Of a stretch of DNA of 64,000 bases, positions 31,632 through 52,116 are shown one piece after another. Origin of the DNA: Alistipes sp. (lineage in GTDB: Bacteria > Bacteroidota > Bacteroidia > Bacteroidales > Rikenellaceae); contig JAFZFX010000011.1 of NCBI GenBank assembly GCA_017555695.1, positions 89,603 to 153,602 on the forward strand, written 5' to 3'. The translations under genes were made by a program, and so were the position numbers. Each line of letters starts with the position of its first letter. The first letter of the stretch is position 1. The notes under the pieces were generated by a model. The model had not been told where the DNA came from, ran no database searches, and worked only from the letters and a program-made list of their open reading frames with translations.

Positions 31632-33092
31632 TTATGGCTTGGCGGCCATCAACTCCTTGAGTAGGCTGATATTGTATGTGGCTTCGCTGACACCAGCCTT
31701 TTGTGCCTGCTCGAAGAGCGACATAGCCTGCTGATAGTTGCCCTGCGACATAGCTAATATGCCTCGTGAGTTCATAGCCTCGGGCATGTCGCTTGGTAAT
31801 CCCTGCAGATAGGTTGCGGCCTGTGCGTAGTCGCCGTTTGCCATCGCAACATTTGCGGCATTCACGCGCGCAATGGGTGACTGCGGATAGGTTTTCACGG
31901 CGATGAGGAGTATGTCGTTCCACTCCTTGCTACCCTTCTCGTATGTGAGAGCCACCAGGTAGATGTCTTCCAAAGAGAGCTGTGCGGGGTTCTCTTTGAT
32001 GAGTTGTTTTGCCTTGGCGATATCCATCTTTTCGTTATGCTCGATGCTTATGTCTGTGGTGCGCAACTTGGGATACCACTGCTTGAACATAAATTTGTAC
32101 GAGATGGGGAACTGCTTGCGGATTGTGGCGTTTTTGCTGGCTTCGGGAATCGTGTTGTCATCGATGATGGCTATAATCTTCGTGTAGTTCTCGATGCGTG
32201 ATGCTGTGAGCCACTCCTTTATAGCCTCCCAATCGGTTGTAGCAGAGTCTACGCTGACGGGGATAGATGACGCGATGTTGTTCTTAGTCATATAATCCTT
32301 GACGGCGGCAGCTCGCTTGGCAGCCAATGACTTGTTGAACTCCAGCGGACCCTCGGGTGAGGCGTAGCCCATCAACTTTATGGCCTTGATGTTGTTGGTC
32401 GAGAGCTTGCTTAAAGAGTCCAAAGCGCTTTTGTTACCCATAAATGCAGGGTCGATGTTGCTCTTGTTGATGGGGAAATAGATTCCCATATCGTAGTGCG
32501 TTGGAGAGGGAGCCTCGCTCTGCGGAATGGCGTAGGCCATACGGGGCTTTGCATCGGTGGCTATTGCCTGATGCGTAGCGTCGTTATGCGGCGAGTTTTG
32601 CATTACGGTATTTACATCGGCGATTGCGAGCAACTCTTCGGCGTATGGTATATCGTGGCAACTGCACCACTCTTCGCGCAGAATGAGTTTTGAGCCCTTC
32701 ATCCATGGCTGCATAGTCACATTGGCATCGTAGTCCACGCTCTGTTCCGTGCTTCTCTGGCGGCGAACATAGGTGTTGGCCGAGGGGAACATATCGTCTG
32801 ATTGGCGGTCGTGAACAATGCTACGACGGCGGCCATCGACGACGACGGCTGGCAACTGCAACATCTCGCGGCCGTCACTCAAAAGCGGAGTGATGCGCAG
32901 TGAGTGGTTGGAGCGTATCTCAAGGTTGCTTAAATCGAAAACCATACTGATGTCGAGCCGTGAGCCCGATGGCGTGAGGGTGATATCCTCGATGGCGACG
33001 CCGTTGACGGTTACGCTGTTTTGAGCCTGTGTGCTATGTAGAGAGATTAGCATCAGGCAGACAATAAATAAAAATTTGGAAAGGTGTTTCAT
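31632..33092 (-). CDS. DUF3868/OmpA-like/TPR protein
   Basis: 486 residues with a signal peptide ending in TQAQ. The N-terminal 120 residues match the DUF3868 type (VNGVAIEDITLTPSGSRLDISMVFDL and DGRRRS), the middle has an OmpA-like peptidoglycan-binding segment (INKSNIDPAFMGNKSALDSLSKLS, LMGYASPEGPLEFNKSLAAKRA), and the end has TPR-like helical repeats. In Bacteroidales this family is usually found with DUF3575 proteins at fimbria (Mfa-type) loci; the DUF3575 partner lies 15 nt upstream, but no fimbrillin gene is here. Confidence 0.85.
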   Translation of the reverse strand: MKHLSKFLFIVCLMLISLHSTQAQNSVTVNGVAIEDITLTPSGSRLDISMVFDLSNLEIRSNHSLRITPLLSDGREMLQLPAVVVDGRRRSIVHDRQSDDMFPSANTYVRRQRSTEQSVDYDANVTMQPWMKGSKLILREEWCSCHDIPYAEELLAIADVNTVMQNSPHNDATHQAIATDAKPRMAYAIPQSEAPSPTHYDMGIYFPINKSNIDPAFMGNKSALDSLSKLSTNNIKAIKLMGYASPEGPLEFNKSLAAKRAAAVKDYMTKNNIASSIPVSVDSATTDWEAIKEWLTASRIENYTKIIAIIDDNTIPEASKNATIRKQFPISYKFMFKQWYPKLRTTDISIEHNEKMDIAKAKQLIKENPAQLSLEDIYLVALTYEKGSKEWNDILLIAVKTYPQSPIARVNAANVAMANGDYAQAATYLQGLPSDMPEAMNSRGILAMSQGNYQQAMSLFEQAQKAGVSEATYNISLLKELMAAKP

Positions 33093-33107
33093 AATTCGTC
33101 GCTGTGT

Positions 33108-33680
33108 TTAGAATAGATAAACGAATGAGATGGATAGTTTGGTGATGCCCCAATAGTTCTTGTTAAGGTCGGAGGCCAACTTCGCACCGCCCTCTTGTGG
33201 CTCGTATTTGTCGTACCACGCGTGTGCGTAGCCTACGCCCACTTCGGCTTCGAGATTCCAATGTTTGCCGAGCATCCACGCGTAGCCGTAGCCAATACCA
33301 CCACCAAAGGCGTGACCCTTCAGACGATAGTCCTTGAGGGAGTCCCACATACTAAAGGGGAAGAACGATACATTGCCGATGTTGAAACCTCCACCCAGTA
33401 GGTGTCCTGCCAAGAAGTGACCATTAAAGCGCTCGCAGGTCCACCAGCGGAATTCGGGCTGGACGAGCCAGTGGCGCCACTGACGATTGTGAGAGAATTT
33501 GAAGGGGTTGAATCCTGCCGAGATGTCAAGGGTCGTCTGTGGGCCCATACCAATCTCAACACCCAAGTTTGGTGATGATGTTGCCGAGTAGAGTAAATTG
33601 CTCTTTAGTCCGACAACCTGTGCATCACTCTGTCCGATAAATGCCGTGAGTAACAGCAATGAAAGTAGAATTTTTTTCAT
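33108..33680 (-). CDS. DUF3575 outer-membrane beta-barrel-like protein
   Basis: 190 residues with a signal peptide (cleavage after SDAQ) and alternating beta strands ending in an aromatic residue (VYLF), as in outer-membrane barrels. Family marks are VVGLKSNLLYSATSSPNLGVEIG, WLVQPEFRWWTCERFNGHFLAGH and GYGYAWMLGKHWNLEAEVGVGYAH. It pairs with the DUF3868 gene that follows at a 15-nt gap, and is the first gene of that two-gene unit. Its role in fimbria anchoring or assembly is only known by association. Confidence 0.88.
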   Translation of the reverse strand: MKKILLSLLLLTAFIGQSDAQVVGLKSNLLYSATSSPNLGVEIGMGPQTTLDISAGFNPFKFSHNRQWRHWLVQPEFRWWTCERFNGHFLAGHLLGGGFNIGNVSFFPFSMWDSLKDYRLKGHAFGGGIGYGYAWMLGKHWNLEAEVGVGYAHAWYDKYEPQEGGAKLASDLNKNYWGITKLSISFVYLF

Positions 33681-33802
33681 AGTTTGAAATGCCTATTAAT
33701 TTCAGAGGCCTTACATTCAAACTTTGCACCAAACCAGATTTTGGGCTGCTGAAAATGAGTTGTGAGGGTTTTTAGGCGTGTGCCGTAGATTGTGAAGCAC
33801 TG

Positions 33803-34264
33803 CTAAAATAGCGAATTGATGCCCTGAAGTGCGTACAGCAGCACAAGGTAGCGGGCGAACTTGCCCAAGAACATCATAAATGTGGTGATGTAGATATTGG
33901 CGCGCATAAGGCCGAGTAGTACGATTATAACCTCGCCTACCCACGGCAAAACTCCGAAGACGCCCATCCATGCGCCTCGTCGTTGAACGAATCCCGAAAC
34001 TTTGTCGAGTTTCTGTTTGTCGATTTTTAGCCAGCGCTCTATCCACTCCATATTACCCAGATAGCCAAGCCAATAGCAGATTAGACCGCCGAGCGTGTTG
34101 CCGATGGATGCCGACAGCAGGCAGACTATCGGGTCGGCCCCCATTTGCACCAGAATGGTCAGTACAACCTCTGACGAAAACGGGAGTATGCTGCCAGCGA
34201 TGAGTGCCGACAGAAACAGGCCAATGTAGCCCCACTCGATGAAAAACTGAATCAGTGCATCCAT
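33803..34264 (-). CDS. YqaA/DedA-type membrane protein
   Basis: 153 residues with about four hydrophobic segments and the SNARE-associated (DedA/VTT) motif: LSALIAGSILPFSSEVVLTILV, GNTLGGLICYWLGYLG, GAWMGVFGVLPWVGEVIIVLLGLMR. The short form is of the YqaA type. DedA-superfamily proteins move lipids across the inner membrane or support proton-driven processes. It has its own promoter. Confidence 0.9.
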   Translation of the reverse strand: MDALIQFFIEWGYIGLFLSALIAGSILPFSSEVVLTILVQMGADPIVCLLSASIGNTLGGLICYWLGYLGNMEWIERWLKIDKQKLDKVSGFVQRRGAWMGVFGVLPWVGEVIIVLLGLMRANIYITTFMMFLGKFARYLVLLYALQGINSLF

Positions 34265-34283
34265 TCTACTTAGATAAGTCGTG

Positions 34284-34317
34284 CAAAAATAAGAAATTTA
34301 TTCTTATTGCGGCCAAA
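34284..34317 (-). promoter_or_regulatory. Promoter of the YqaA-type gene
   Basis: On the minus strand TTTG (34314-34317) and TATTTTTG (34284-34291) are 22 bp apart, 20 nt upstream of the start codon. Confidence 0.6.
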
Positions 34318-34373
34318 TAATTCCAAATAGCGCTCAAAAGTGGCGGATAGTGCGGAAAAAAGGGATTGAAGAG

Positions 34374-34403
34374 TTTGATAATTGGCTTTTTTTAGTATAT
34401 TTG
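34374..34403 (+). promoter_or_regulatory. Promoter of the TonB-dependent receptor gene
   Basis: TTTG at 34374-34377 and TATATTTG at 34396-34403 with an 18-bp spacer match the Bacteroidota boxes. Transcription from near 34408 gives a leader of about 100 nt that is rich in hairpins. Confidence 0.7.
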
Positions 34404-34413
34404 CATCGATACT

Positions 34414-34493
34414 CCCGATGGGAAATGTAGTTTCGGTGGCCTATGGCCGAAATCGGGTCGGGAAAATGTTGAACTTGCACCGTAAATAGGTGC
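34414..34493 (+). promoter_or_regulatory. Structured 5' leader of the TonB-dependent receptor mRNA
   Basis: Two nested stems share one side: CCCGA (34414-34418) pairs with TCGGG (34453-34457), and TTTCGG (34431-34436) pairs with CCGAAA (34447-34452), so the two 3' arms are contiguous. A third hairpin, GCACC (34477-34481) with GGTGC (34489-34493), lies just upstream of the start codon. I do not recognise it as a known riboswitch. Confidence 0.45.
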
Positions 34494-34507
34494 CCAAACA
34501 GAACGAA

Positions 34508-37500
34508 ATGAAGAATTTTCTTTGTCTTTTAATGGCAATATTGTGCCTTGATGTATCGGCACAGATGACCACATCCTCACTGAGAGGAACGGTTACAGAC
34601 TCAAATAAAAAGCCTTTGGCGGGAGCAGCCGTCTTGCTCCGACAATCTAAAACAGGTGTTGAATACTACTCTATAGTCAATAACGATGGTCGATTCTCTA
34701 TTCACGGTATCAAGCCCGATGATGGCTATGTGCTGGATGTGGAGTTTATCGGCTATGAGCCATTCAAGTTGGTGGATATGGTGCTGCGACTTGGCGAGAG
34801 CCATCGCGAAGATATCGTGCTTAAGGAGTCGGCCGTAGCGTTGGGTGATGTGGTTGTGACGGCCAGTCAGGTGCAGTCGGTTGGTGTGACGGAGAATTTC
34901 GATAAGCGCCAGATTCAACAACTGCCTACGGTGTCGCGCTCGCTCTATGATGTGGTGCGCTTGATGCCCCAAGCCTCGTCAGTGAGAGGTGGCGGTATGT
35001 CGTTTGGCGGAGTGTCGAACAGATACAACTCGTTTATGGTAAATGGCGTTGCCAACAACGATATGTATGGCCTTTCATCGTCGGGAACCCACGGTGGATT
35101 GTCTAACGCTAATCCCGTGTCGTTAGATGCAATCGAGCAGATTGAGGTGTCGGTGGCGTCGTACGATGTGCGCAGAAGTGGTTTCGGAGGCGGCGTAATC
35201 AATGCCATTACCAAGTCGGGTACAAATAAATTTGAGGGTAGCGCATACACATACTACAACAATCAGAATCTCTATGGCTCAACACCTGGTAAGGATGTAG
35301 AAAATCGTGAGAAGTTGGAGAATTACAATGCTCGCATATATGGTGCTACATTTGGTGGCCCGATTGTAAAGGATAAACTCTTCTTCTTTGTGAGTGGCGA
35401 GTATAATCTGCACACCTCGCCTTCGTCTTACTATCTCGATGCTGATGGCGCAATGCTCATTAAAGAGGAGTTGGATAGAGTTGCTGCGAGATATAAGGCG
35501 CTGACGGGATATGATGGTGGCGGGTATTATCGCCGTGATGTGGAGCGCCGTTCAATGTCGCTATTGGCCAATGTCGATTGGCATATCAACAAGCAAAATC
35601 GTCTGTCGGCAAGCTATAGCTACCTGGATGCCGAGGCTGAGGAGTATGCCAATTCTTACTCGTCGTTCACATTTGTAGGCTCTGGATATGCGAATTATAG
35701 CTCTGCACACCACCTGTCGCTCTCGCTGGAGTCACGACTGTCGGATTATCTGCATAATACTCTCAAAGTGGGTTTGTCGCGCGTTGGGGATGGTCGTGAG
35801 GCAGATATTGAGGGTGCGATGCCGAGTGTGATAATTAAAAATGCAGGTTCGACGAAGGGTGTGACGCTGAATATCGGTAACAACCGTTATGCCGGCGTAA
35901 ACTCTTTGACGCAGAATGTGGTGACGCTGACCGATAACCTTATTTGGGATGGTGGCGCACACTCTATTGTGGTGGGTATGCATCACGAATTGTATAATAT
36001 TCACAATCGCTACCTCGCAAATTCGTTGGGAACATATACCTATAACTCTATCGAAGATTTCGAACGAGATATGGCGGCGCAGTATGAGTATAACTACACA
36101 GATCCTGCGGTGACGGGTACAACCACTTGGGGCCCGCGATTCCGTGCTGCGGAGTTCAGTCTCTATGCGCAGGATAATTGGGATATGGGCGCAGGATTTA
36201 ACCTCACCTATGGCTTGCGTGCTACCCTACCCGCTATCTTCAATACGCCGACAAGCAACGAAGAGTTTAATCGTGGAGATATTGCTATGCGATATGGCGT
36301 AAGAATCGGCGATGTGCCGCAAACGCAGTTGTTGCTCTCGCCTCGCGTAGGCCTTACTTGGAGAAGAAACTACGAAGCTGGCGTGTTGTCGCTGGAGGGT
36401 GGCGTAGGTATCTTTACGGGCCAGGTGCCGTTTGTGTGGGTGGTTAATAACTACTCGAATACGGGTGTCGAACAGAAGGGTCTAAAACTGACAGCAAAGA
36501 TGGATGGCGGAGAGGTTGTTAAGACTGCTGCTCCGTTTACGGCCGAGCCCTCGCCTACAACAATGTCTAATACGAGCTTTATGCTCAACGCAATGGATAA
36601 GGGCTTTAAGTATCCGCAGAACTTCAAGGCTAACCTCGTTGCAGAGTTTAGAGAGCGTAATGGTTGGGTGATGCGTGCCGAGGCGTTGTACACTAAAGTG
36701 ATAAATGGTGCAGTTTTTCGTAATCTGGCTGTTGAGCCTACGGCGAAAGGCGTATATGCTGTGGCGGCTGGAGATGGCACACAAACGTCGGGGCTGATGC
36801 CGCAGATGCAGCGCATAACATTGGACTATTCGGCGGTATATTATATGGAGAATACTTCGAGGGGTTACTCCTATTCGTTGTCGGGTAGCATTGCCAAGGA
36901 GTTTGATATGGGTCTGAGTGTGATGGCTTCGTATATCTTTGGCCACTCATATTCGGTGTGTGATGTGCCTTCGACATCCTCTTCTTCGAATTGGAGCCGC
37001 ACCTATGCGCTCGATTTGAACGACCCTGAGTTGTCTTATTCGTCGTATGATGTGCCTCACAAGTTGTCGTTCTCGGCGACTTACCATAAGCGATATGCTC
37101 CGCTGTTTGATGTGACTGCTGGTGTGGTTTATCAGCTCACTTCGGGTCAGCGCTATTCGCTTACATTTGGTGAGTCGGTGGACTTCAATGGCGATGGTGT
37201 TTATGGCTCTACGCTGATGTATATCCCTACAGAGGACGAGCTCTCGCGTATGCGTTTTGCGGATGGTGATTCGCGGCGTAAGTGGAACGACTATATCAAG
37301 GCTAATGATTATCTGAGTGAGCATCGTGGTGAGTTCGCTGCGCGCAATGCTATGCAGGCACCCGTTGAGAGTCGGATAGATTTGCATCTGGCTCACGGTT
37401 TCTACTTTAGTCGAGAGAGTAGCAGACGATTGGAACTGACTCTAGATGTGATGAACTTTGGCAATCTTTTGTGTCGTCATTGGGGCAGTTATTACAATGT

Positions 37501-37642
37501 GGGAAATGTGCGTCTGCAGCCCGTTACAGTTGTGTCACAACAGGATGGAGAATTGGTTTATAGATTCACGAATGGCGATTTGACGCCTAACGATTTGATG
37601 TCGCGCTGGAGTATGCAGTTGGGTGTAAGGGTGCGCTTCTAA
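34508..37642 (+). CDS. Oar-like TonB-dependent outer-membrane receptor
   Basis: 1044 residues from the ATG at 34508, preferred to an upstream GTG because it begins a signal peptide (MKNFLCLLMAILCLDVSAQ). Order: carboxypeptidase-regulatory-like domain (about 25-105; LRGTVTDSNKKPLAGAAVLL), plug (about 115-230; YDVVRLMPQASSVRGGGMSFGG, DAIEQIEVSVASYDVRRSGFGGGVINAITKSGTN), then the 22-strand barrel ending in VRVRF. This is the Oar-type group rather than SusC, and no SusD partner follows. The substrate is unknown. It is transcribed alone. Confidence 0.92.
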   Translation: MKNFLCLLMAILCLDVSAQMTTSSLRGTVTDSNKKPLAGAAVLLRQSKTGVEYYSIVNNDGRFSIHGIKPDDGYVLDVEFIGYEPFKLVDMVLRLGESHREDIVLKESAVALGDVVVTASQVQSVGVTENFDKRQIQQLPTVSRSLYDVVRLMPQASSVRGGGMSFGGVSNRYNSFMVNGVANNDMYGLSSSGTHGGLSNANPVSLDAIEQIEVSVASYDVRRSGFGGGVINAITKSGTNKFEGSAYTYYNNQNLYGSTPGKDVENREKLENYNARIYGATFGGPIVKDKLFFFVSGEYNLHTSPSSYYLDADGAMLIKEELDRVAARYKALTGYDGGGYYRRDVERRSMSLLANVDWHINKQNRLSASYSYLDAEAEEYANSYSSFTFVGSGYANYSSAHHLSLSLESRLSDYLHNTLKVGLSRVGDGREADIEGAMPSVIIKNAGSTKGVTLNIGNNRYAGVNSLTQNVVTLTDNLIWDGGAHSIVVGMHHELYNIHNRYLANSLGTYTYNSIEDFERDMAAQYEYNYTDPAVTGTTTWGPRFRAAEFSLYAQDNWDMGAGFNLTYGLRATLPAIFNTPTSNEEFNRGDIAMRYGVRIGDVPQTQLLLSPRVGLTWRRNYEAGVLSLEGGVGIFTGQVPFVWVVNNYSNTGVEQKGLKLTAKMDGGEVVKTAAPFTAEPSPTTMSNTSFMLNAMDKGFKYPQNFKANLVAEFRERNGWVMRAEALYTKVINGAVFRNLAVEPTAKGVYAVAAGDGTQTSGLMPQMQRITLDYSAVYYMENTSRGYSYSLSGSIAKEFDMGLSVMASYIFGHSYSVCDVPSTSSSSNWSRTYALDLNDPELSYSSYDVPHKLSFSATYHKRYAPLFDVTAGVVYQLTSGQRYSLTFGESVDFNGDGVYGSTLMYIPTEDELSRMRFADGDSRRKWNDYIKANDYLSEHRGEFAARNAMQAPVESRIDLHLAHGFYFSRESSRRLELTLDVMNFGNLLCRHWGSYYNVGNVRLQPVTVVSQQDGELVYRFTNGDLTPNDLMSRWSMQLGVRVRF

Positions 37643-37726
37643 TTGGGTTAATATATAAAAGTATAGTGAGAAGAAAAATATTGCATAATTTTGCTTGCGG
37701 ATGCGTGTAGATTGAAATATTTTTCT

Positions 37727-37734
37727 TACCTTTG
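37727..37734 (+). promoter_or_regulatory. Promoter -7 box of the pyr operon
   Basis: TACCTTTG matches TAnnTTTG, 28 nt upstream of the leader ORF start and 190 nt upstream of pyrC. No TTTG stands at the expected distance upstream. Transcription would start near 37740. Confidence 0.6.
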
Positions 37735-37754
37735 CACAAAATACGAAGTTAGGT

Positions 37755-37880
37755 ATGTATAAGCAAATGGAGATAGCGATTGGTGCTGCAAATCAATGTG
37801 CGATTTGTAAGTCTGATGGTTTTTCTTTATTTTGCGAATCGAATATTTATCAGGTAGTTACAACTATTTGTTATTGTTAA
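37755..37880 (+). CDS. Candidate pyr operon leader peptide
   Basis: A 41-codon ORF starts 15-20 nt after the predicted transcription start (ATG at 37755 after a weak GTTAGG) and ends with TAA at 37878-37880. The stop lies 5 nt before the terminator stem. Its second half is rich in U: codons for Phe, Ser, Leu, Ile, Tyr and Cys, with stretches such as GGTTTTTCTTTATTTTG (37818-37834) and CTATTTGTTATTGTTAATAT (37864-37883). The peptide contains five Cys and has no recognisable domain. Size and position recall the 44-codon pyrL leader of E. coli pyrBI. Translation is not proven. Confidence 0.5.
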   Translation: MYKQMEIAIGAANQCAICKSDGFSLFCESNIYQVVTTICYC

Positions 37881-37885
37881 TATGG

Positions 37886-37909
37886 GGCGACTGTTTAGTC
37901 GCCTTTTTT
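37886..37909 (+). terminator. Intrinsic terminator (attenuator) before pyrC
   Basis: A 7-bp GC-rich stem, GGCGACT (37886-37892) with AGTCGCC (37897-37903), a GTTT loop, and six T (37904-37909) form a canonical terminator. It is placed between promoter and first structural gene, only 7 nt before the pyrC ATG, so it must be bypassed for the operon to be expressed. A ribosome stopped at the leader ORF end would cover the 5' arm. Confidence 0.8.
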
Positions 37910-37916
37910 ATGGTCT

Positions 37917-39188
37917 ATGGATAACGGAAGAGTAATATTGAAATCGGGCCTCGTTGTTAGAGGTGGCGTATCGGCTGTGGCAGATGTAGTTGTGCGTGGC
38001 TCAAAGATTGAGTGCGTGGCTGAAAATGTCGAGGTTGGAGCCGATGATATGGTGATTGATTGCTCGGGTAAAGTGGTGATGAGCGGTCTTGTAGATCTGC
38101 ATGTTCACCTGCGTGAACCAGGCTTCTCGGCCAAGGAGACTGTCGCTTCTGGAACAGCCGCTGCGGCGCACGGAGGATTCTCCACAGTATGCTCGATGCC
38201 TAATCTCAATCCCGCTCCCGATACGGTAGAGCACCTGCAGCAGCAGTTGGATATCATAGAGCGTGATGCAGTGGTTAAGGTACTACCCTACGCCACAATC
38301 ACACGCGAGCGATATGGTCGCGAATTGGTCGATTTCGCTGCGCTGAAACATATGGTGGCTGGCTTTTCGGATGATGGTAGTGGCGTGCAGAGCGATGATG
38401 TTATGCGCGAGGCTATGCGTGAGGCCGTAAAGAACGATGCAATCATTGCAGCTCACTGTGAGGTGAACGACCTGCTTAAGGGTGGATACATCCACGATGG
38501 TGAGTATGCTGCACAGCACGGCCACAAGGGAATCTGCTCGGAGAGTGAGTGGGGTCAGATTAAGCGTGATATAGAGTTGGCTGCGGAGATTGGTTGCCGT
38601 TATCATGTGTGTCATATATCGACTAAGGAGAGTGTGGCGCTTATCAGAGAGGCCAAGAAGCAGGGCGTGAAGATTACCTGCGAGACAGGTCCCCACTACC
38701 TTACAATGTGCGATATGGATTTGCAGGAGGAGGGTCGTTTCAAGATGAATCCCCCTATTCGTTCAGCCGAGGATAGAGATGCTCTTATTGAGGGTTTGAA
38801 GGATGGTACTATTGATGTTGTGGCTACAGACCACGCACCTCATACCGCCGAAGAGAAATCTCGAGGATTGGCTGGTAGCGCAATGGGCGTAGTTGGTTTG
38901 GAGACTTCGTTTGCTGTAATATATACAAAGTTGGTGCGCGAGGGTGTTATCTCACTTGAGCAGGCCGTGGAGGTAATGAGCGAAGCACCTCGCAAAATAT
39001 TCAACCTCGGTGGAGGCTTGAGCGAGGGTGAGGCGGCTGACATCGCAGTGTTCGATTTGAATGTCGAGTACGATGTCAATCCCGACGAGTTTTTGTCGAA
39101 GGGTCGTAGTACTCCTTTTGAGGGGTGGCATCTGTGGGGTGAGTGTAGCCTGACGATGGTGGACGGCCAGATAGTATGGAAAAAATAA
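37917..39188 (+). CDS. pyrC: Dihydroorotase
   Basis: Cyclises carbamoyl-aspartate to dihydroorotate. 423 residues of the class I (type II, PyrC/AllB-like) amidohydrolases: metal ligands in DLHVHLREPGF, the AHCE site (HCEVNDL), CHIST, and DHAPHT with the catalytic Asp. Length and motifs indicate an active enzyme. No ribosome site is visible in the U-tract just before the ATG. First structural gene of pyrC-carA-carB-pyrK-pyrD. Confidence 0.96.
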   Translation: MDNGRVILKSGLVVRGGVSAVADVVVRGSKIECVAENVEVGADDMVIDCSGKVVMSGLVDLHVHLREPGFSAKETVASGTAAAAHGGFSTVCSMPNLNPAPDTVEHLQQQLDIIERDAVVKVLPYATITRERYGRELVDFAALKHMVAGFSDDGSGVQSDDVMREAMREAVKNDAIIAAHCEVNDLLKGGYIHDGEYAAQHGHKGICSESEWGQIKRDIELAAEIGCRYHVCHISTKESVALIREAKKQGVKITCETGPHYLTMCDMDLQEEGRFKMNPPIRSAEDRDALIEGLKDGTIDVVATDHAPHTAEEKSRGLAGSAMGVVGLETSFAVIYTKLVREGVISLEQAVEVMSEAPRKIFNLGGGLSEGEAADIAVFDLNVEYDVNPDEFLSKGRSTPFEGWHLWGECSLTMVDGQIVWKK

Positions 39189-39228
39189 CAATAGATAATT
39201 AATAATAAAAAGTCTAAATCGAAAGACA

Positions 39229-40317
39229 ATGAAACCATTTACAAAGAAATTAGTTCTTGAGAACGGTCGTGAGTTCCCTGGATATGGCTACGGTGCCAAT
39301 GTGGAGCGAGTATGCGACATCGTTTTCAACACTTCTGTGGTGGGTTATCAGGAGATTATCTCTGACCCGTCGTACCTTGGCCAGATGGTGGTGATGGCCT
39401 ACCCTCTGATTGGTAACTATGGTATTACCGAAGAGGATTTTGAGTCAAAGCAGCCTGTCGTTGGCGGTATGGTTGTGCGTGAGTGCAACGAGAACCCAAG
39501 CAACTTCCGTTACACCAAGACTTTCTCGGAGACTCTTGAGGAGCAGGGCATCCCTTGCATCGCAGGTGTAGATACTCGTATGATCGTACGCATCATTCGC
39601 GACGAGGGTAACCAGCGTGCTGCGATTGTGAATATTGACACTCCTACAGAGGTGGCTTTGGAGATGATTAAGAACGCTCCCGCCCCCGCTAATCAGGTGG
39701 CACAGGTTAGTTGCCGCAAGCGTTGGTTCTCGCGTACACCTAACCACAAGTACGATATCGTTGCCGTAGACTGCGGTATTAAGTATAACATCATCCGTGA
39801 GTTTACAAGCCGCGAGTGCAATGTTACAGTTGTACCCTACAACACTACATTGGAGGAGATTTTGGCTTTCAACCCCGACGGTATCTACATCTCGAATGGC
39901 CCTGGTAATCCCGAGGCTCTGCCCGAGGTTGTGGAGTTGATTAAGGCGGTTTGCGGTCGCATCCCTGTATTTGGTACTTCACTCGGTATGCAGCTCATCT
40001 CGTTGGCATACGGCGCAAAGGTATATAAGATGAAGTGTGGTCACCACGGCAGCCCTGCAGTGCGTACGCTCGCAACTGGCCGTGTGGATATGACTTCGCA
40101 GAATCATACTTATGCTGTTGATGCCGAGTCATTGAAGGGTACTCGTCTTGAGGCTACCCACCTTAATGTGGTGGACAACACCATTGAGGGTGTGGAGTGT
40201 GCGGCTGACAAGGTTTACGCCGTTCAGTTCTACCCTGAGAGCGCTCCCGGTCCGCAGGATTGCTCATACCTTATTGATAAATTCATTAAATTGATGGAGG
40301 AGAAACAAAATGCCTAA
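39229..40317 (+). CDS. carA: Carbamoyl-phosphate synthase small subunit with a degenerate glutaminase site
   Basis: 362 residues in the normal CarA order: N-terminal small-subunit domain (1-150; GYQEIISDPSYLGQMV, GNYGI), then a class I glutamine amidotransferase domain (about 173-358; SNGPGNPEAL). The usual nucleophile motif GICLGHQ reads GTSLGMQ: Ser251 (codon 39979-39981) replaces Cys. The usual QFHPE reads QFYPE: Tyr335 (codon 40231-40233) replaces the catalytic His; Glu337 is kept. In E. coli numbering these are Cys269 and His353. The frame is intact and fully conserved elsewhere, so this looks like a structural subunit without glutamine hydrolysis. It overlaps carB by 8 nt. Confidence 0.93.
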   Translation: MKPFTKKLVLENGREFPGYGYGANVERVCDIVFNTSVVGYQEIISDPSYLGQMVVMAYPLIGNYGITEEDFESKQPVVGGMVVRECNENPSNFRYTKTFSETLEEQGIPCIAGVDTRMIVRIIRDEGNQRAAIVNIDTPTEVALEMIKNAPAPANQVAQVSCRKRWFSRTPNHKYDIVAVDCGIKYNIIREFTSRECNVTVVPYNTTLEEILAFNPDGIYISNGPGNPEALPEVVELIKAVCGRIPVFGTSLGMQLISLAYGAKVYKMKCGHHGSPAVRTLATGRVDMTSQNHTYAVDAESLKGTRLEATHLNVVDNTIEGVECAADKVYAVQFYPESAPGPQDCSYLIDKFIKLMEEKQNA

Positions 40318-43300
40318 GAGAACAGATATAAAGAAAGTAATGGTGATCGGTTCGGGTCCGATTGTCATTGGTCAGGCCGCAGAGTTCGACTATGCAGGTA
40401 CACAGGCGTGCTTGGCACTTAAGGAGGAGGGTTACGAGGTTATCCTTGTGAACTCTAATCCTGCAACTATTATGACCGATACAAACATCGCCGACAAGGT
40501 TTATATGGAGCCTTTGACGCTGGAGTATGTTGCTAAGATTGTACGGTATGAGCGTCCCGATGCCATCGTTCCTGGCTTGGGTGGTCAGACTGGTCTTAAC
40601 TTGGCAGTTCAGTTGGCCAAGAAGGGCGTTTTGGACGAGTGCCATGTAGAGATTCTCGGTACATCATTCGAGAGTATCGAGGAGGCCGAGGATAGAGAGT
40701 TGTTCAAGGACTTGTGCGTAAGAATCGGTGAGCCCGTATTGCCTTCAGTTGTTGTGAACACAATGGAGGATGGTATTAAGGCTGCCAAGGAGATTGGCTA
40801 CCCCGTAGTATTGCGTCCCGCGTTTACATTGGGCGGTACAGGTGGCGGTTTTGCTGACAACGAGGAGGAGTTGCGTGAGATTATGCGTAACGCGCTCGTT
40901 CTCTCACCCGTACACCAGGTATTGGTTGAGAAGAGTATCAAGGGTTACAAGGAGATTGAGTTCGAGGTAATGCGCGATAAGAACGATACTGCAATTGCAA
41001 TTTGTAGTATGGAGAATATCGACCCCGTGGGTATTCACACTGGTGACTCAATGGTAATTGCTCCCGCACAGACTCTTACAGATAAGGAGTATCAGCTCTT
41101 GCGTGGTAGCGCGTTGAAGATTATCCGTGCGTTGAAGATTGAGGGTGGTTGTAATGTGCAGTTCGCGCTCGACCCGCTCTCGTTCAACTACTATATCATT
41201 GAGGTTAACCCCCGTGTTTCTCGTTCATCAGCTTTGGCTTCAAAGGCGAGTGGTTTCCCCATTGCTCGTGTAACTGCTAAGATTGCCGTAGGTCTTACTC
41301 TCGACGAGATTATGCTCTCTGGCCGTCCCGCTTGCTTTGAGCCCGCATTGGACTATGTGGTATTGAAGGTTGCCCGCTTCCCGTTTGATAAGTTCAGCGA
41401 CGCATCGAACGAGTTGGGTACACAGATGAAGGCTACGGGTGAGGTTATGAGTATCGGCCGCACTATCGAGGAGGGTATCCTCAAGGCTGTTCGCTCATTG
41501 GAGACTGGCGTTTGCCACATCCACAGCAAGAAGTTCGACGATTGGAAGAACGACGCTCTGTTGGATTACATCCGCAAGGGTACCGACGACCGCTTCTATG
41601 CTATCGCACAGCTTATACGTAACGGCGTAGATTTGCTCATTATTTACAACTACACCAAGATTGATATGTTGTTCTTGGAGAAGTTCAAGAACATCGTAGA
41701 GATGGAGAAGGTCGTAGCTGCATCGGTTGGTGATATTGAGGTATTGCGTGAGGCTAAGCGTATGGGCTTCAGCGATAAGTTCATCGGCCAGTTGTGGGGC
41801 AAGAACGAGGCTGAGATGTTCAAGTTGCGTCAGGCAGAAAATGTATTCCCCGTATATAAGATTATCGACTCTTGCGCGGGTGAGATTGATACATATGTAC
41901 CCTACTTCTACTCTACTTACGAGCAGGAGAACGAGTCAGCACGCAGCGACAGAAAGAAGATTTTGGTATTGGGTTCAGGTCCTATCCGTATCGGTCAGGG
42001 TGTGGAGTTCGACTACTCGACTGTTCACGCAATCTGGACTATCAAGGAGGCTGGCTATGAGGCTATTATCATCAATAACAACCCCGAGACTGTATCTACA
42101 GACTATACAATCAGTGACAAGCTCTACTTCGAGCCGCTGACCGTAGAGGATGTGATGAATGTTGTAGAGTTGGAGAAGCCCGATGGTATCGTTGTATCGT
42201 TGGGTGGTCAGACCGCTATCAACTTGGCAGAGCCTTTGGCTGACCTGGGTGTGAAGATTATCGGTACTGGCATCGAGGCTATCAACAACGCAGAGGACCG
42301 CAAGTGCTTCGAGCGTATTATGAACGAGGTTGGTATTCCTCAGCCTGAGGCAAAGGCCGTGACTGACATCGAGGCAGGTGTAGAGGCTGCTAATCGCATC
42401 GGCTACCCCGTATTGGTTCGTCCGAGCTTCGTATTGGGTGGTCGCGCTATGCAGATTGTTGGTAACGAGGAGACTTTGCGTCACTACCTGCGTTCGGCAG
42501 TAGAGATTAACGAGAAGTCGCCCGTATTGGTTGATAAGTATATCCAGGGTAAGGAGTTGGAGGTTGATGCAATCTGCGACGGTAAGGATGTATTTATCCC
42601 CGGTATTATGGAGCATGTAGAGCATACTGGTATCCACTCTGGTGATAGTATCAGCGTATACCCCACTTTCAGTGTGAGCCAGCAGGTTAAGGATACAATC
42701 ATCGAGTACACACAGCGTTTGGGTCTTGCTATCGGTATCGTTGGTCTGTTCAATATCCAGTTCATCGTGGACGACGAGGATAAGGTATATGTAATCGAGG
42801 TTAATCCCCGTTCATCTCGTACCGTTCCCTTCCTGTCTAAGTCTACTGGCGTGCCCATGGCGAAGATTGCCACAATGGTTATCCTCGGCCACTCACTCAA
42901 GGAGCAGGGCATTACAGAGGTTTACGGTAAGGAGAAGAGCCGCTGGTTCGTTAAGTCGCCTGCCTTCTCATTCGCTAAGATCCGCGGTGTAGACTCTTAC
43001 CTCTCTCCCGAGATGAAGTCTACAGGTGAGGCTATCGGTTACGACAAGAGCCTCAATCGGGCTCTCTACAAGTCACTCCGTTCATCGGGTGTGGCTGTGG
43101 CTAACTATGGTACGATTTTCGTTACTATAGCTGATGCCGACAAGGAGCGCGCATTGCCGTTGATTCGCCGTTTCTACGACTTGGGCTTCAATATCGAGGC
43201 TACAAAGGGTACTTGCGAGTTCTTGCGTAGCAATGGTGTTCGTACTCGTCTGTTGCGTAAGTTGAGCGAGGGCAGCACCGAGATTTACGATGAGTTGCGT

Positions 43301-43492
43301 AAGGGTCATGTGACCTATGTAATCAATACTATCGATGTAAATCAGCACAGCACTCGCCGCGATGGTTACGATATTCGTCGTGCCGCAGCCGAGAACAATG
43401 TGACTCTGTTTACAGCTCTTGAGACAGTGAGCGTATTGCTCGATGTTCTGGAGGAGATTACATTGGGAGTATCAACTATTGATGCAGAGTAA
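40310..43492 (+). CDS. carB: Carbamoyl-phosphate synthase large subunit
   Basis: Makes carbamoyl phosphate from bicarbonate, ammonia and two ATP. 1060 residues with two homologous ATP-grasp halves: SGPIVIGQAAEFDYAGTQ and SGPIRIGQGVEFDYSTVH open each half, VLRPAFTLGGTGGG and VLVRPSFVLGGRAMQIV are the ATP-binding loops, and EVNPRVSRSSALASKA and EVNPRSSRTVPFLSKST hold the metal sites. The C-terminal MGS-like domain (from about 930) is present, so allosteric control is possible. A strong GGAGG site lies in carA upstream of the start. Both synthetase halves look active. Confidence 0.97.
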   Translation: MPKRTDIKKVMVIGSGPIVIGQAAEFDYAGTQACLALKEEGYEVILVNSNPATIMTDTNIADKVYMEPLTLEYVAKIVRYERPDAIVPGLGGQTGLNLAVQLAKKGVLDECHVEILGTSFESIEEAEDRELFKDLCVRIGEPVLPSVVVNTMEDGIKAAKEIGYPVVLRPAFTLGGTGGGFADNEEELREIMRNALVLSPVHQVLVEKSIKGYKEIEFEVMRDKNDTAIAICSMENIDPVGIHTGDSMVIAPAQTLTDKEYQLLRGSALKIIRALKIEGGCNVQFALDPLSFNYYIIEVNPRVSRSSALASKASGFPIARVTAKIAVGLTLDEIMLSGRPACFEPALDYVVLKVARFPFDKFSDASNELGTQMKATGEVMSIGRTIEEGILKAVRSLETGVCHIHSKKFDDWKNDALLDYIRKGTDDRFYAIAQLIRNGVDLLIIYNYTKIDMLFLEKFKNIVEMEKVVAASVGDIEVLREAKRMGFSDKFIGQLWGKNEAEMFKLRQAENVFPVYKIIDSCAGEIDTYVPYFYSTYEQENESARSDRKKILVLGSGPIRIGQGVEFDYSTVHAIWTIKEAGYEAIIINNNPETVSTDYTISDKLYFEPLTVEDVMNVVELEKPDGIVVSLGGQTAINLAEPLADLGVKIIGTGIEAINNAEDRKCFERIMNEVGIPQPEAKAVTDIEAGVEAANRIGYPVLVRPSFVLGGRAMQIVGNEETLRHYLRSAVEINEKSPVLVDKYIQGKELEVDAICDGKDVFIPGIMEHVEHTGIHSGDSISVYPTFSVSQQVKDTIIEYTQRLGLAIGIVGLFNIQFIVDDEDKVYVIEVNPRSSRTVPFLSKSTGVPMAKIATMVILGHSLKEQGITEVYGKEKSRWFVKSPAFSFAKIRGVDSYLSPEMKSTGEAIGYDKSLNRALYKSLRSSGVAVANYGTIFVTIADADKERALPLIRRFYDLGFNIEATKGTCEFLRSNGVRTRLLRKLSEGSTEIYDELRKGHVTYVINTIDVNQHSTRRDGYDIRRAAAENNVTLFTALETVSVLLDVLEEITLGVSTIDAE

Positions 43493-43494
43493 TT

Positions 43495-44235
43495 ATGTAT
43501 AAAAAAGGGATATATAAAATCGTTGAGAACAATCCCCTGACATCAGATGTTTGGCGTATGGTGTTGGAGGGTGAGACACGATGGATTGTACGCCCGGGAC
43601 AATTTGTAAATATTGAGTTGGACGGCCTTTACTTGCGCCGTCCAATCTCTATTTGCGATTGGAGCGATAACACGATAACAATAATCTATAAGGTTGTGGG
43701 TCGTGGTACCGAGCAGATGAGCCGAATGACCGATGGTCAGACGCTCGATGTGTTGACGGGTCTTGGTAATGGTTTCAATGTGGACGCAAGTGGCAACCAT
43801 TCGCTGTTGGTGGGTGGTGGCGTAGGCGTACCGCCATTGTATCGCCTGGCCAAGGAGTTGCTGCAGAAGGGTGGCAAGGTTAGCGTAGTGCTGGGCTTCA
43901 ATACTGCAAAGGAGTTGTTCTATGTCGATGAATTCAAAGCGTTGGGTGCAGATGTATATGTCTCAACTGCTGACGGTTCGGTTGGCGTTAAGGGCTTCGT
44001 AACAGATGCGATTCGTGAGGCTAACCTCGACTTCGACTACTTCTATTCGTGTGGTCCGTTGCCTATGTTGAAGGCTCTGTGTGACTGCACCGATGTGAAG
44101 GGTGAGTTGTCGTTTGAGGAGCGTATGGGTTGTGGCTTTGGTGCTTGTATGGGCTGTAGCTGTAAGACCTTGACGGGTAATAAGCGCATTTGCAAAGAGG
44201 GTCCCGTAATGCGTCGCGAGGAGATAATTTGGTAA
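43495..44235 (+). CDS. pyrK: Dihydroorotate dehydrogenase electron-transfer subunit
   Basis: 246 residues that pass electrons from PyrD to NAD+ through FAD and a [2Fe-2S] cluster. FAD-binding LRRPISICDW, the nucleotide loop GGGVGVPPLYRLAKEL, and the C-terminal cluster CGFGACMGCSCK with a later Cys (KRIC) are present. It starts 2 nt after carB and precedes pyrD, its partner. Confidence 0.95.
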   Translation: MYKKGIYKIVENNPLTSDVWRMVLEGETRWIVRPGQFVNIELDGLYLRRPISICDWSDNTITIIYKVVGRGTEQMSRMTDGQTLDVLTGLGNGFNVDASGNHSLLVGGGVGVPPLYRLAKELLQKGGKVSVVLGFNTAKELFYVDEFKALGADVYVSTADGSVGVKGFVTDAIREANLDFDYFYSCGPLPMLKALCDCTDVKGELSFEERMGCGFGACMGCSCKTLTGNKRICKEGPVMRREEIIW

Positions 44236-44247
44236 AGGAGAGAGTTT

Positions 44248-45168
44248 ATGGCAAATAATTTAGATATGTCGGTGGAGTTGTGCGGCGTAAAGCTGGACAA
44301 CCCTGTAATCCCTGCGAGCGGAACTTTCGGCTTTGGCAAGGAGCATAACGAATTTTACGATATCAATATCCTCGGCTCAATCTCGGTTAAGGGTACAACG
44401 CGTGAGGCGCGTTTTGGTAACCCCACGCCTCGTATTGCAGAGTGCCGTGCCGGTTTGATTAACTCGGTTGGTCTGCAGAATCCTGGTGTTGACGCAGTCA
44501 TCGCCAAGGAGTTGCCTCAGTTGCGTAAGGTTTTTCGTAAGCCTATCATTGCCAATATCAGCGGTTTCTCGATTGATGAGTATGTAGAGTGCTGCGAGAA
44601 GATTGACAAGGAGGAGCAGGTGGCAATTATCGAGGTGAATGTATCGTGCCCCAATGTGCATAACGGTGGAATGAGTTTCGGTACGCAGCCCGAGATGGCG
44701 GCGGAGGTGACTCGTGCCGTGAAGGCCGTAACTACTAAGCCCGTATTTGTTAAGCTTAGCCCCAATGTTACTGATATCGTAGCTATTGCAAAGGCTTGTG
44801 AGGAGGCTGGTGCTGATGGTATCTGCTTGATTAATACGCTGCTCGGCATGCGTATTGATGTGAAGCGCCGTCGTCCCGTTATCGCCAACAAGATGGGTGG
44901 TTTCTCTGGTCCTGCTGTATTCCCCGTAGCTGTGCGTATGGTATATCAGGTGGCTAACGCTTGCAATGTGCCCGTTATGGGTTGCGGTGGTGTAGAGAGC
45001 GCTACGGATGTTATCGAGATGATGATGGCTGGTGCTACTGCCGTGCAGGTGGGTGCTGCAAATCTCAAGGATCCCTATGCTTGTAAGCGAATTATCGAGG
45101 ATTTGCCCGTTGAGATGGAGCGCCTCGGTATTGAGCGTTTGAGCGATATTATCGGCGTTGTAAAGTAG
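44248..45168 (+). CDS. pyrD: Dihydroorotate dehydrogenase, class 1B catalytic subunit
   Basis: Oxidises dihydroorotate to orotate. 306 residues, FMN-binding TIM barrel: NPVIPASGTFGFG, NSVGLQNPG, the loop VSCPNVHNGGMSFG whose Cys is the class 1 catalytic base, KLSPNVTDI and GCGGVESATD. The neighbouring pyrK marks it as the NAD-linked 1B type rather than the quinone-linked class 2 enzyme. It follows pyrK by 12 nt and ends the first pyr unit. Confidence 0.96.
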   Translation: MANNLDMSVELCGVKLDNPVIPASGTFGFGKEHNEFYDINILGSISVKGTTREARFGNPTPRIAECRAGLINSVGLQNPGVDAVIAKELPQLRKVFRKPIIANISGFSIDEYVECCEKIDKEEQVAIIEVNVSCPNVHNGGMSFGTQPEMAAEVTRAVKAVTTKPVFVKLSPNVTDIVAIAKACEEAGADGICLINTLLGMRIDVKRRRPVIANKMGGFSGPAVFPVAVRMVYQVANACNVPVMGCGGVESATDVIEMMMAGATAVQVGAANLKDPYACKRIIEDLPVEMERLGIERLSDIIGVVK

Positions 45169-51033: not shown

Positions 51034-52116
51034 ATGAGACATTTGATTGATACAACCGATATTACGGTTGAAGAGGTTGATAGAATAATCAATACCGCGC
51101 TCGATATTATCGACAACCGCGAGAAGTATAGCCAGGCTTGCAAGGGCAAGAAGCTAGCTACCCTGTTCTATGAGCCCAGCACGCGTACGCGTTTGAGCTT
51201 TACTGCGGCAATGATGGAGTTGGGTGGTAATGTGTTGGGATTCTCAGATGCAGCCTCTTCGTCGGTTAGTAAAGGTGAGACAGTGGCTGATACAGTCAGA
51301 GTATTGGGCTGTTTTGCTGATATTATTGCTATGCGCCACAGCCGCGAGGGTGCGCCTCTTGTAGCGTCTCACTACTCTGATGTGCCCATCATCAATGCTG
51401 GTGATGGTAGCCACGCCCACCCTACACAGACTCTTACCGACCTTTTGACTATTCGTCGTGAGAAGGGTCGTTTGAACAACCTTACTATCGGTTTCTGTGG
51501 TGACTTGAAGTTTGGCCGTACGGTACACTCTCTCATTAAGGCACTCTCACGCTATGAGGGTATCAATGTTGTGTTAATTGCCCCCGAGGAGTTGCGCTTG
51601 CCGTCATATATCCGTCGTGAGGTGTGCGACAAGAACAATGTTCCCACGCGTGAGGTTACAACTATGGAGGAGGTATTGCCCGAGTTGGATATCCTCTATA
51701 TGACCCGTGTGCAGAAGGAGCGTTTCTTGGATGAGGACGAGTTCGAGCGTCTGAAGGATAGCTTTATCCTTAATTCTGAGCGAATGAAGTTGGCCAAGAG
51801 CGATATGATTGTTCTTCACCCGCTGCCTCGTGTGAACGAGATTACGCGCGATGTGGATAACGACCCGCGTGCTGCTTACTTCCGCCAGGTTGAGAATGGT
51901 AAGTTCGTGCGTATGGCTTTGATTTACACTCTTCTGGAGTGGGCAAAGGAGGCTCCCGAGACATCGCAGACACCTCGTCTTGACCAGAATATGGTACATA
52001 ACGATTGGCGTTGTAGCAACCGTCAATGTATATCTAATTGGGAGGATATGGACCGCTTGTTCCACCCGACCGAGGACGGATATCGTTGTGCATACTGCGA
52101 GGCTCGCAAGAAGTAG
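51034..52116 (+). CDS. pyrB: Aspartate carbamoyltransferase fused to a PyrI-type zinc ribbon
   Basis: 360 residues. Residues 1-305 are a complete catalytic chain: carbamoyl-phosphate loop STRTR at 49-53, the loop with SVSKGET near 77-83, HPTQTLTD near 129-136 and HPLPR at 262-266. The last 50 residues are unusual: Cys327, Cys332, Cys352 and Cys355 (CSNRQC, then CAYC) with ISNWE between, like the zinc domain of the E. coli regulatory subunit PyrI (C-x4-C, C-x2-C). The nucleotide-binding half of PyrI is absent, and no pyrI gene is in the window. The fused ribbon may hold the oligomer together without allosteric control. Confidence 0.93.

Follow-up and report, generated by a model that had tools for sequence, protein, structure and literature searches.

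A probable pyrBI-like, ribosome-coupled attenuator ahead of the pyrimidine operon of Alistipes

How is pyrimidine synthesis controlled in an Alistipes (Rikenellaceae, Bacteroidales) whose biosynthetic operon starts behind a promoter box, a small open reading frame (ORF) and a terminator? We analysed a 64,000-nt stretch of a 2.18-Mb genome of this genus (hereafter the window), in which profile searches identify the operon behind this leader as pyrC-carA-carB-pyrK-pyrD (Table 1). The first-pass annotation had read the leader as the parts of a UTP-sensing attenuator standing in the right order from promoter box to pyrC; checked against the sequence and the ORF list, their order, positions and distances are correct to the base. 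The TAA stop of the leader ORF (37878-37880) lies 5 nt ahead of the terminator stem, which pairs GGCGACT (37886-37892) with AGTCGCC (37897-37903) around a GTTT loop, runs from 37884 to 37905 if G-U ends are included, and is followed by T6 (37904-37909), with 7 nt from its end to the pyrC ATG at 37917. A passage of PMC9723704 puts the TAnnTTTG box at -12 to -5 relative to the transcription start; applied to the window box, this placing predicts a start near 37739, about 16 nt ahead of the leader ATG.

Table 1. Elements of the leader and genes of the operon in the window, with the basis of each assignment.
Feature	Position	Strand	Basis
-7 promoter box TACCTTTG (TAnnTTTG), Bacteroidota type	37727..37734	+	sequence; box and terminator in 89/90 same-genus genomes
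Leader ORF, 41 codons, MYKQMEIAIGAANQCAICKSDGFSLFCESNIYQVVTTICYC	37755..37880	+	ORF list; open-frame test; substitution pattern
U-rich stretch 1 (TTTTTCTTTATTTT)	37820..37833	+	sequence
U-rich stretch 2, reaching the stop codon	37865..37878	+	sequence; U profile over 117 leaders; T-biased synonymous sites
Intrinsic terminator, GC-rich hairpin and T6	37886..37909	+	sequence; pattern scan; comparison
pyrC, dihydroorotase, first gene of the operon	37917..39188	+	TIGR00857, 413 bits (cut-off 279)
carA, carbamoyl-phosphate synthase small subunit	39229..40317	+	TIGR01368, 420.8 bits (above cut-off)
carB, carbamoyl-phosphate synthase large subunit	40310..43492	+	TIGR01369, 1462 bits (above cut-off)
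pyrK, dihydroorotate dehydrogenase electron transfer subunit	43495..44235	+	NF000799, 2.2e-76 (under curated cut-off); Pfam DHODB_Fe-S_bind
pyrD, dihydroorotate dehydrogenase	44248..45168	+	TIGR01037, 371 bits (above cut-off)

The window terminator is one of three pattern matches in 3 kb, where 2.6 are expected by chance; the site alone therefore proves little, and the decision falls to comparison. We assembled 171 upstream regions of pyrC, namely 90 from genomes of the genus, 80 from named loci and one from a further genome of the same family. The genus sample held 101 genomes, 94 of them with this pyrC, and the upstreams came from 90 of those 94 (G008, G048, G082 and G098 were left out). Box and terminator were both present in 89 of the 90, the exception being L030. 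Over the whole set, 117 distinct upstreams had the pair, 21 were duplicates (among them L075, an Alistipes-labelled record that duplicates L218) and 33 lacked one or both elements; these 33 comprised 24 from Clostridia or other Bacillota, two without a group name and seven labelled Bacteroidota or from the same genus (L030, L047, L051, L061, L067, L074 and L104). The 117 leaders were thus selected for having box and terminator, and because they had been chosen for having a stem, covariation within the terminator stem was excluded from the evidence.

The layout between box and stem is conserved well beyond what composition would give. An ATG lies 12-61 nt past the start of the box in 112 of the 117 leaders, and every one of these contains an ORF that runs without a stop to 15 nt or less from the stem, against 44.5 +/- 5.2 in dinucleotide shuffles (maximum 57 in 200 shuffles); in the remaining five, ORFs starting with GTG extend to the stem or beyond it. 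The frame of the first ATG is open in 101 of the 112, the other two frames in 12 and 34. Stops are placed with similar regularity: in 106 of 112 leaders at least one ATG leads to a stop no more than 15 nt from the start of the stem (null 28.5), and among the 111 picked ORFs with a defined stop, 102 end within this distance and nine further into or past the terminator (the picked ORF of L091 has no stop in the stretch, and its next ATG has one). These leaders share descent and the shuffle null ignores kinship; 15 representatives less than 60% identical to one another agree, with the ORF open in 15 of 15 (null 7.7, maximum 13 in 1000) and a stop at that distance in 12 of 15 (null 3.9, maximum 8). 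The ORF varies in length and sequence, and by eye the peptides diverge widely between groups, but its stop keeps its place at the stem base. Because the comparative test beats the shuffles, we conclude that the layout is not due to chance, and that it is kept in relatives by position rather than by residues, as the first-pass annotation had anticipated.

The leader ORF is probably translated. Over 21 disjoint pairs of leaders, substitutions by codon position numbered 66/54/86 in the N-terminal part and 24/29/38 in the last 12 codons, a modest third-position excess (p 0.008), and the peptide is mildly constrained (dN/dS-like ratio 0.49). Such residue constraint would be expected of a small protein, and so would fit a reading in which the hairpin merely ends a small gene or sRNA, with pyrC served by its own promoter in the gap or by constitutive read-through; but the residues differ widely between groups while the position of the stop is nearly fixed, and the gap to pyrC is short. 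From the end of the stem to the first in-frame ATG the median is 16 nt (at most 60 nt in 112 of the 115 leaders with such an ATG), and a TAnnTTTG box occurs in this gap in only 2 of 117 leaders. We consider that reading very unlikely, and on account of the short gap and the rarity of the box within it, a transcription start downstream of the hairpin is itself unlikely.

The ORFs also share the composition of their ends. Over the 117 leaders the U fraction climbs from 0.19-0.26 at 66-100 nt ahead of the stem to 0.51-0.58 over the final 15 nt; the last 36 nt are at least a third U in 110 of them and contain YTGTTT in 79 (null 13.5), and the median distance from U-tract to stem is 6 nt. In the 95 leaders whose ORF is of suitable length and stops close to the stem, the share of NNT among NNT and NNC codons is 0.73 in the last 12 codons, 0.60 in the N-terminal part and 0.47 in pyrC, and the share of TTR among leucine codons is 0.80, 0.52 and 0.28, respectively; all three GC classes show the rise in third-position T, including that with pyrC GC3 above 0.65 (94 leaders). 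This T bias at synonymous sites argues that what is selected is the composition of the RNA rather than the residues. In an alignment inspected by eye, most of the closest clade also has a U-rich stretch at the place of stretch 1. The U-tract is not universal: in five of the 117 leaders (L232, L094, L062, L085 and L093) the U fraction ahead of the stem is clearly low, below 0.25. All five have ORFs of 20 codons or fewer, and L232 belongs to the same genus; among the four with fetched flanks, carA is present within 3 kb in L093 and missing there in L062, L085 and L094. These leaders may be a different or reduced form.

Short leaders bear on what the switch would sense. The same placing of a ribosome over the terminator could respond to translation of the leader itself, through initiation rate, ribosome supply or charged tRNA, in place of UTP, and these five short leaders of 10-20 codons, which keep the ORF at the terminator with no U-tract, would be explained in this way, as might the arginine pairs seen in 25 of the 111 leaders (15 in shuffles). 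Sensing of translation leaves the synonymous-site U bias of the long leaders unexplained, however, and no residue run is common to all, the commonest (two or more) being leucine, in 31 of 111; we judge it unlikely, though it deserves to be kept in mind. A classical amino-acid attenuator, with a leader peptide and alternative hairpins, would likewise have both a leader ORF and a terminator, and carAB feeds arginine synthesis as well (noted in a part of PMC6245113). Against it, the 111 ORFs examined share no codon run, competing antiterminator pairing is at chance level in the 117 leaders (mean z -0.09), and the stop mostly lies within 8 nt of the stem or inside it, whereas a section of PMC4824070 places the terminators of amino-acid attenuators more than 20 bp away from the ORF. 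We regard this arrangement as extremely improbable.

As a separate observation, a CGACG-type stretch in mid-leader encodes two or three arginines in leaders of the same genus such as L176, L177, L181, L187, L200 and L211 (by eye); these arginines perhaps have to do with the use of carbamoyl phosphate in its arginine branch.

Compared with shuffled sequence, the leader RNA has somewhat more structure, with z -3.0 when the terminator is included and a mean z of -1.29 without it (26 of 117 leaders below -2). This structure, together with the weak residue constraint, would suit a sensor in the form of the nascent peptide or of an RNA-binding protein on the U-rich stretch; by eye no residue motif runs across the groups, and the PyrR model has no match in 41 genomes of the genus, so that we give such a sensor very little credence. 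Neither the extra RNA structure nor the mild peptide constraint is needed by the attenuator model. A small hairpin (CAAATC 37789-37794 / GATTTG 37802-37807) had been put forward as a possible pause site for RNA polymerase, and it is present in the sequence but not conserved: by eye, of 19 aligned close leaders only that of the window and those of its two nearest relatives can form it, and RNAalifold applied to close leaders returned the terminator only, with the pause hairpin absent from the consensus.

How specific is the arrangement to pyrC? The same scan over 57 fetched loci returned 57 pyrC-leader terminators and seven others, none of the seven lying between box and gene, with an upstream U content of 0.23 against 0.46; carA lay inside the flank in 50 of the 57 leader loci (1.5-kb or 3-kb flanks). 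Nine terminators score at least 18 in the 64-kb window. Besides that of pyrC, one of them, at 63160-63133 on the minus strand, combines a box, an ORF of 65 codons that ends 11 nt ahead of the stem and a following frame of 155 codons; its T-run is interrupted and its U content is 0.25. No leader of this kind precedes pyrF-pyrE-pyrB, the second pyr cluster of the window. The gene uraA was found in 6 of 41 genomes of the genus, and by eye the layout is absent in the five with a readable upstream (L240 is cut off). The pyrB loci were examined in 30 of the 58 genomes that gave a match: seven have box and terminator and four an ORF that reaches the terminator (L119, L121, L133 and L137), and the upstreams of L120, L126 and L138 look similar by eye; U before the stem is 0.56 in L126, 0.50 in L137 and 0.22-0.28 in L119, L121 and L133. 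These pyrB leaders, from other families, are possibly pyr attenuators, related or independent. Among carA loci of 30 of 37 genomes, two have box and terminator and one an ORF (L171, stop 20 nt before the stem). The survey of pyrB, carA and uraA thus shows a layout that is neither confined to pyrC nor general.

We also considered the stem GGCGACT/AGTCGCC as a sign of kinship with the pyrB leaders of other families and rejected it, since by eye the stem there closes the upstream gene. GGCGACT-like stems stand upstream of pyrB in L117, L118, L123, L125, L132, L134, L140 and L142, all from other families; a stem of this kind is common in the order and seems to close the gene before pyrB.

The enzymes themselves invite two further observations. 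The window PyrB, the catalytic chain of aspartate transcarbamoylase (51034-52116), carries a C-terminal PyrI metal-binding domain (PF02748, residues 325-357), and the domain search returned no PyrI nucleotide-binding domain for it, so allosteric control may be missing. The dihydroorotase type of the window pyrC occurs in 3 of 158 genomes of the order, its own included (E up to 1e-60), and Clostridia-type records reach 64% identity to it. Their pyrC genes are preceded by a different terminator, which recurs and has a 5' arm resembling TCTTGCC (L065, L071, L082, L086, L092, L095, L099, L100, L102 and L108, the last without a group label), and these upstreams gave no Rfam match at the gathering threshold, PyrR included. 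It is possible, judging from sequence comparison, that the window pyrC was transferred horizontally, with a different leader on either side.

We propose that the leader is probably a ribosome-coupled attenuator, similar to that of pyrBI, acting on transcription of the pyrC-carA-carB-pyrK-pyrD operon. Transcripts would begin about 16 nt ahead of the leader ATG. With ample UTP, RNA polymerase would outrun the first ribosome, the hairpin would form and the transcript would stop at about 170 nt; when UTP is short, the polymerase would slow in the U-rich end of the leader and the ribosome would catch up, and a ribosome at the stop codon, on the base of the stem, would cover its 5' arm, block the hairpin and let transcription enter pyrC. 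We infer UTP as the signal, and likewise the start site, translation of the ORF, termination and pausing. According to the relevant portion of PMC4824070, in E. coli the ribosome that translates an ORF represses a terminator several bp past its stop codon almost completely, an effect that fades with distance, and the stop positions of our leaders fall within the repressed range; this placing, together with a U-tract just ahead of the stem, is what leads us to the pyrBI scheme. We give even odds to the reading in which the stop codon holds the ribosome in place at the foot of the stem. In that case, ribosome and polymerase would be closely coupled in Bacteroidota.

The leader is a widely conserved, testable candidate for ribosome-controlled termination in gut Bacteroidales, and could explain how pyrimidine synthesis is controlled without PyrR in these bacteria. 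It also offers a natural reporter, in which one synonymous recoding of the U-tract or one shift of the stop codon would probe the mechanism. In open PubMed Central papers, we found no pyrBI-like attenuator in Bacteroidota among the matches listed. A map of B. thetaiotaomicron transcription describes short ORFs in long 5' UTRs as reminiscent of leader peptides (PMC7366714), and the word pyrimidine is absent from its main text; the main text of an attenuator survey (PMC2965389) contains neither Bacteroid- nor UTP.

Three known systems help to place this leader. Bacillus-type PyrR attenuators also control pyr genes through a leader terminator, and need PyrR and its RNA loop. The window leader would share that principle of control and differs in having neither a PyrR match nor an Rfam match: NF003549, which we take to be the PyrR model, matched 0 of 41 genomes of the genus at E up to 1e-10 but, among 14 control genomes, 6 including B. 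subtilis, and Rfam covariance models gave no match at E up to 1 over window positions 33000-43000. Over 18 related loci Rfam returned only an unrelated sRNA, a member of the Bacteroidetes FopS family (RF04319) at positions 475-562 of L089 (Porphyromonas canoris). Within the same phylum, clues for leader-peptide attenuation ahead of amino-acid operons have been reported in Flavobacterium psychrophilum; pyrimidine operons are not named in the part of PMC9723704 concerned.

The closest likeness is to E. coli pyrBI, likewise a pyrimidine operon whose leader has a U-rich 3' part and an intrinsic terminator with a G+C stem and a T-run, and which to our knowledge has no antiterminator. We measured the E. 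coli leader ORF, pyrL, with the same code as the window leader, and compared the two by layout. The ORFs have 44 codons in pyrL and 41 in the window, and the distances from ATG to stem are 89 and 131 nt; U is densest 12-36 nt ahead of the stem in pyrL, while the window leader stays U-high up to the stem and has a second U-rich stretch further upstream. The first genes, the phylum and the promoter type differ as well. Of the same geometry claimed in the first-pass annotation, the ORF, the U-rich 3' part and the terminator hold, and the end of the ORF relative to the terminator does not: pyrL runs through the terminator to end 46 nt past the start of the stem, whereas the window ORF stops 5 nt before it, and ORFs that read into or past the terminator occur in a minority of relatives. 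Excerpts from two studies describe the pyrBI terminator as lying within its 135-bp leader ORF and not repressed at normal UTP (PMC4824070), and support a role of coupling in pyrL (PMC5021804). In our judgement, reading through the terminator is a detail of pyrL on which the mechanism does not depend. The stop before the stem, unlike that of pyrL, limits our claim to one of working like pyrBI, and from its sequence it looks as if the window leader does work like pyrBI while being laid out differently.
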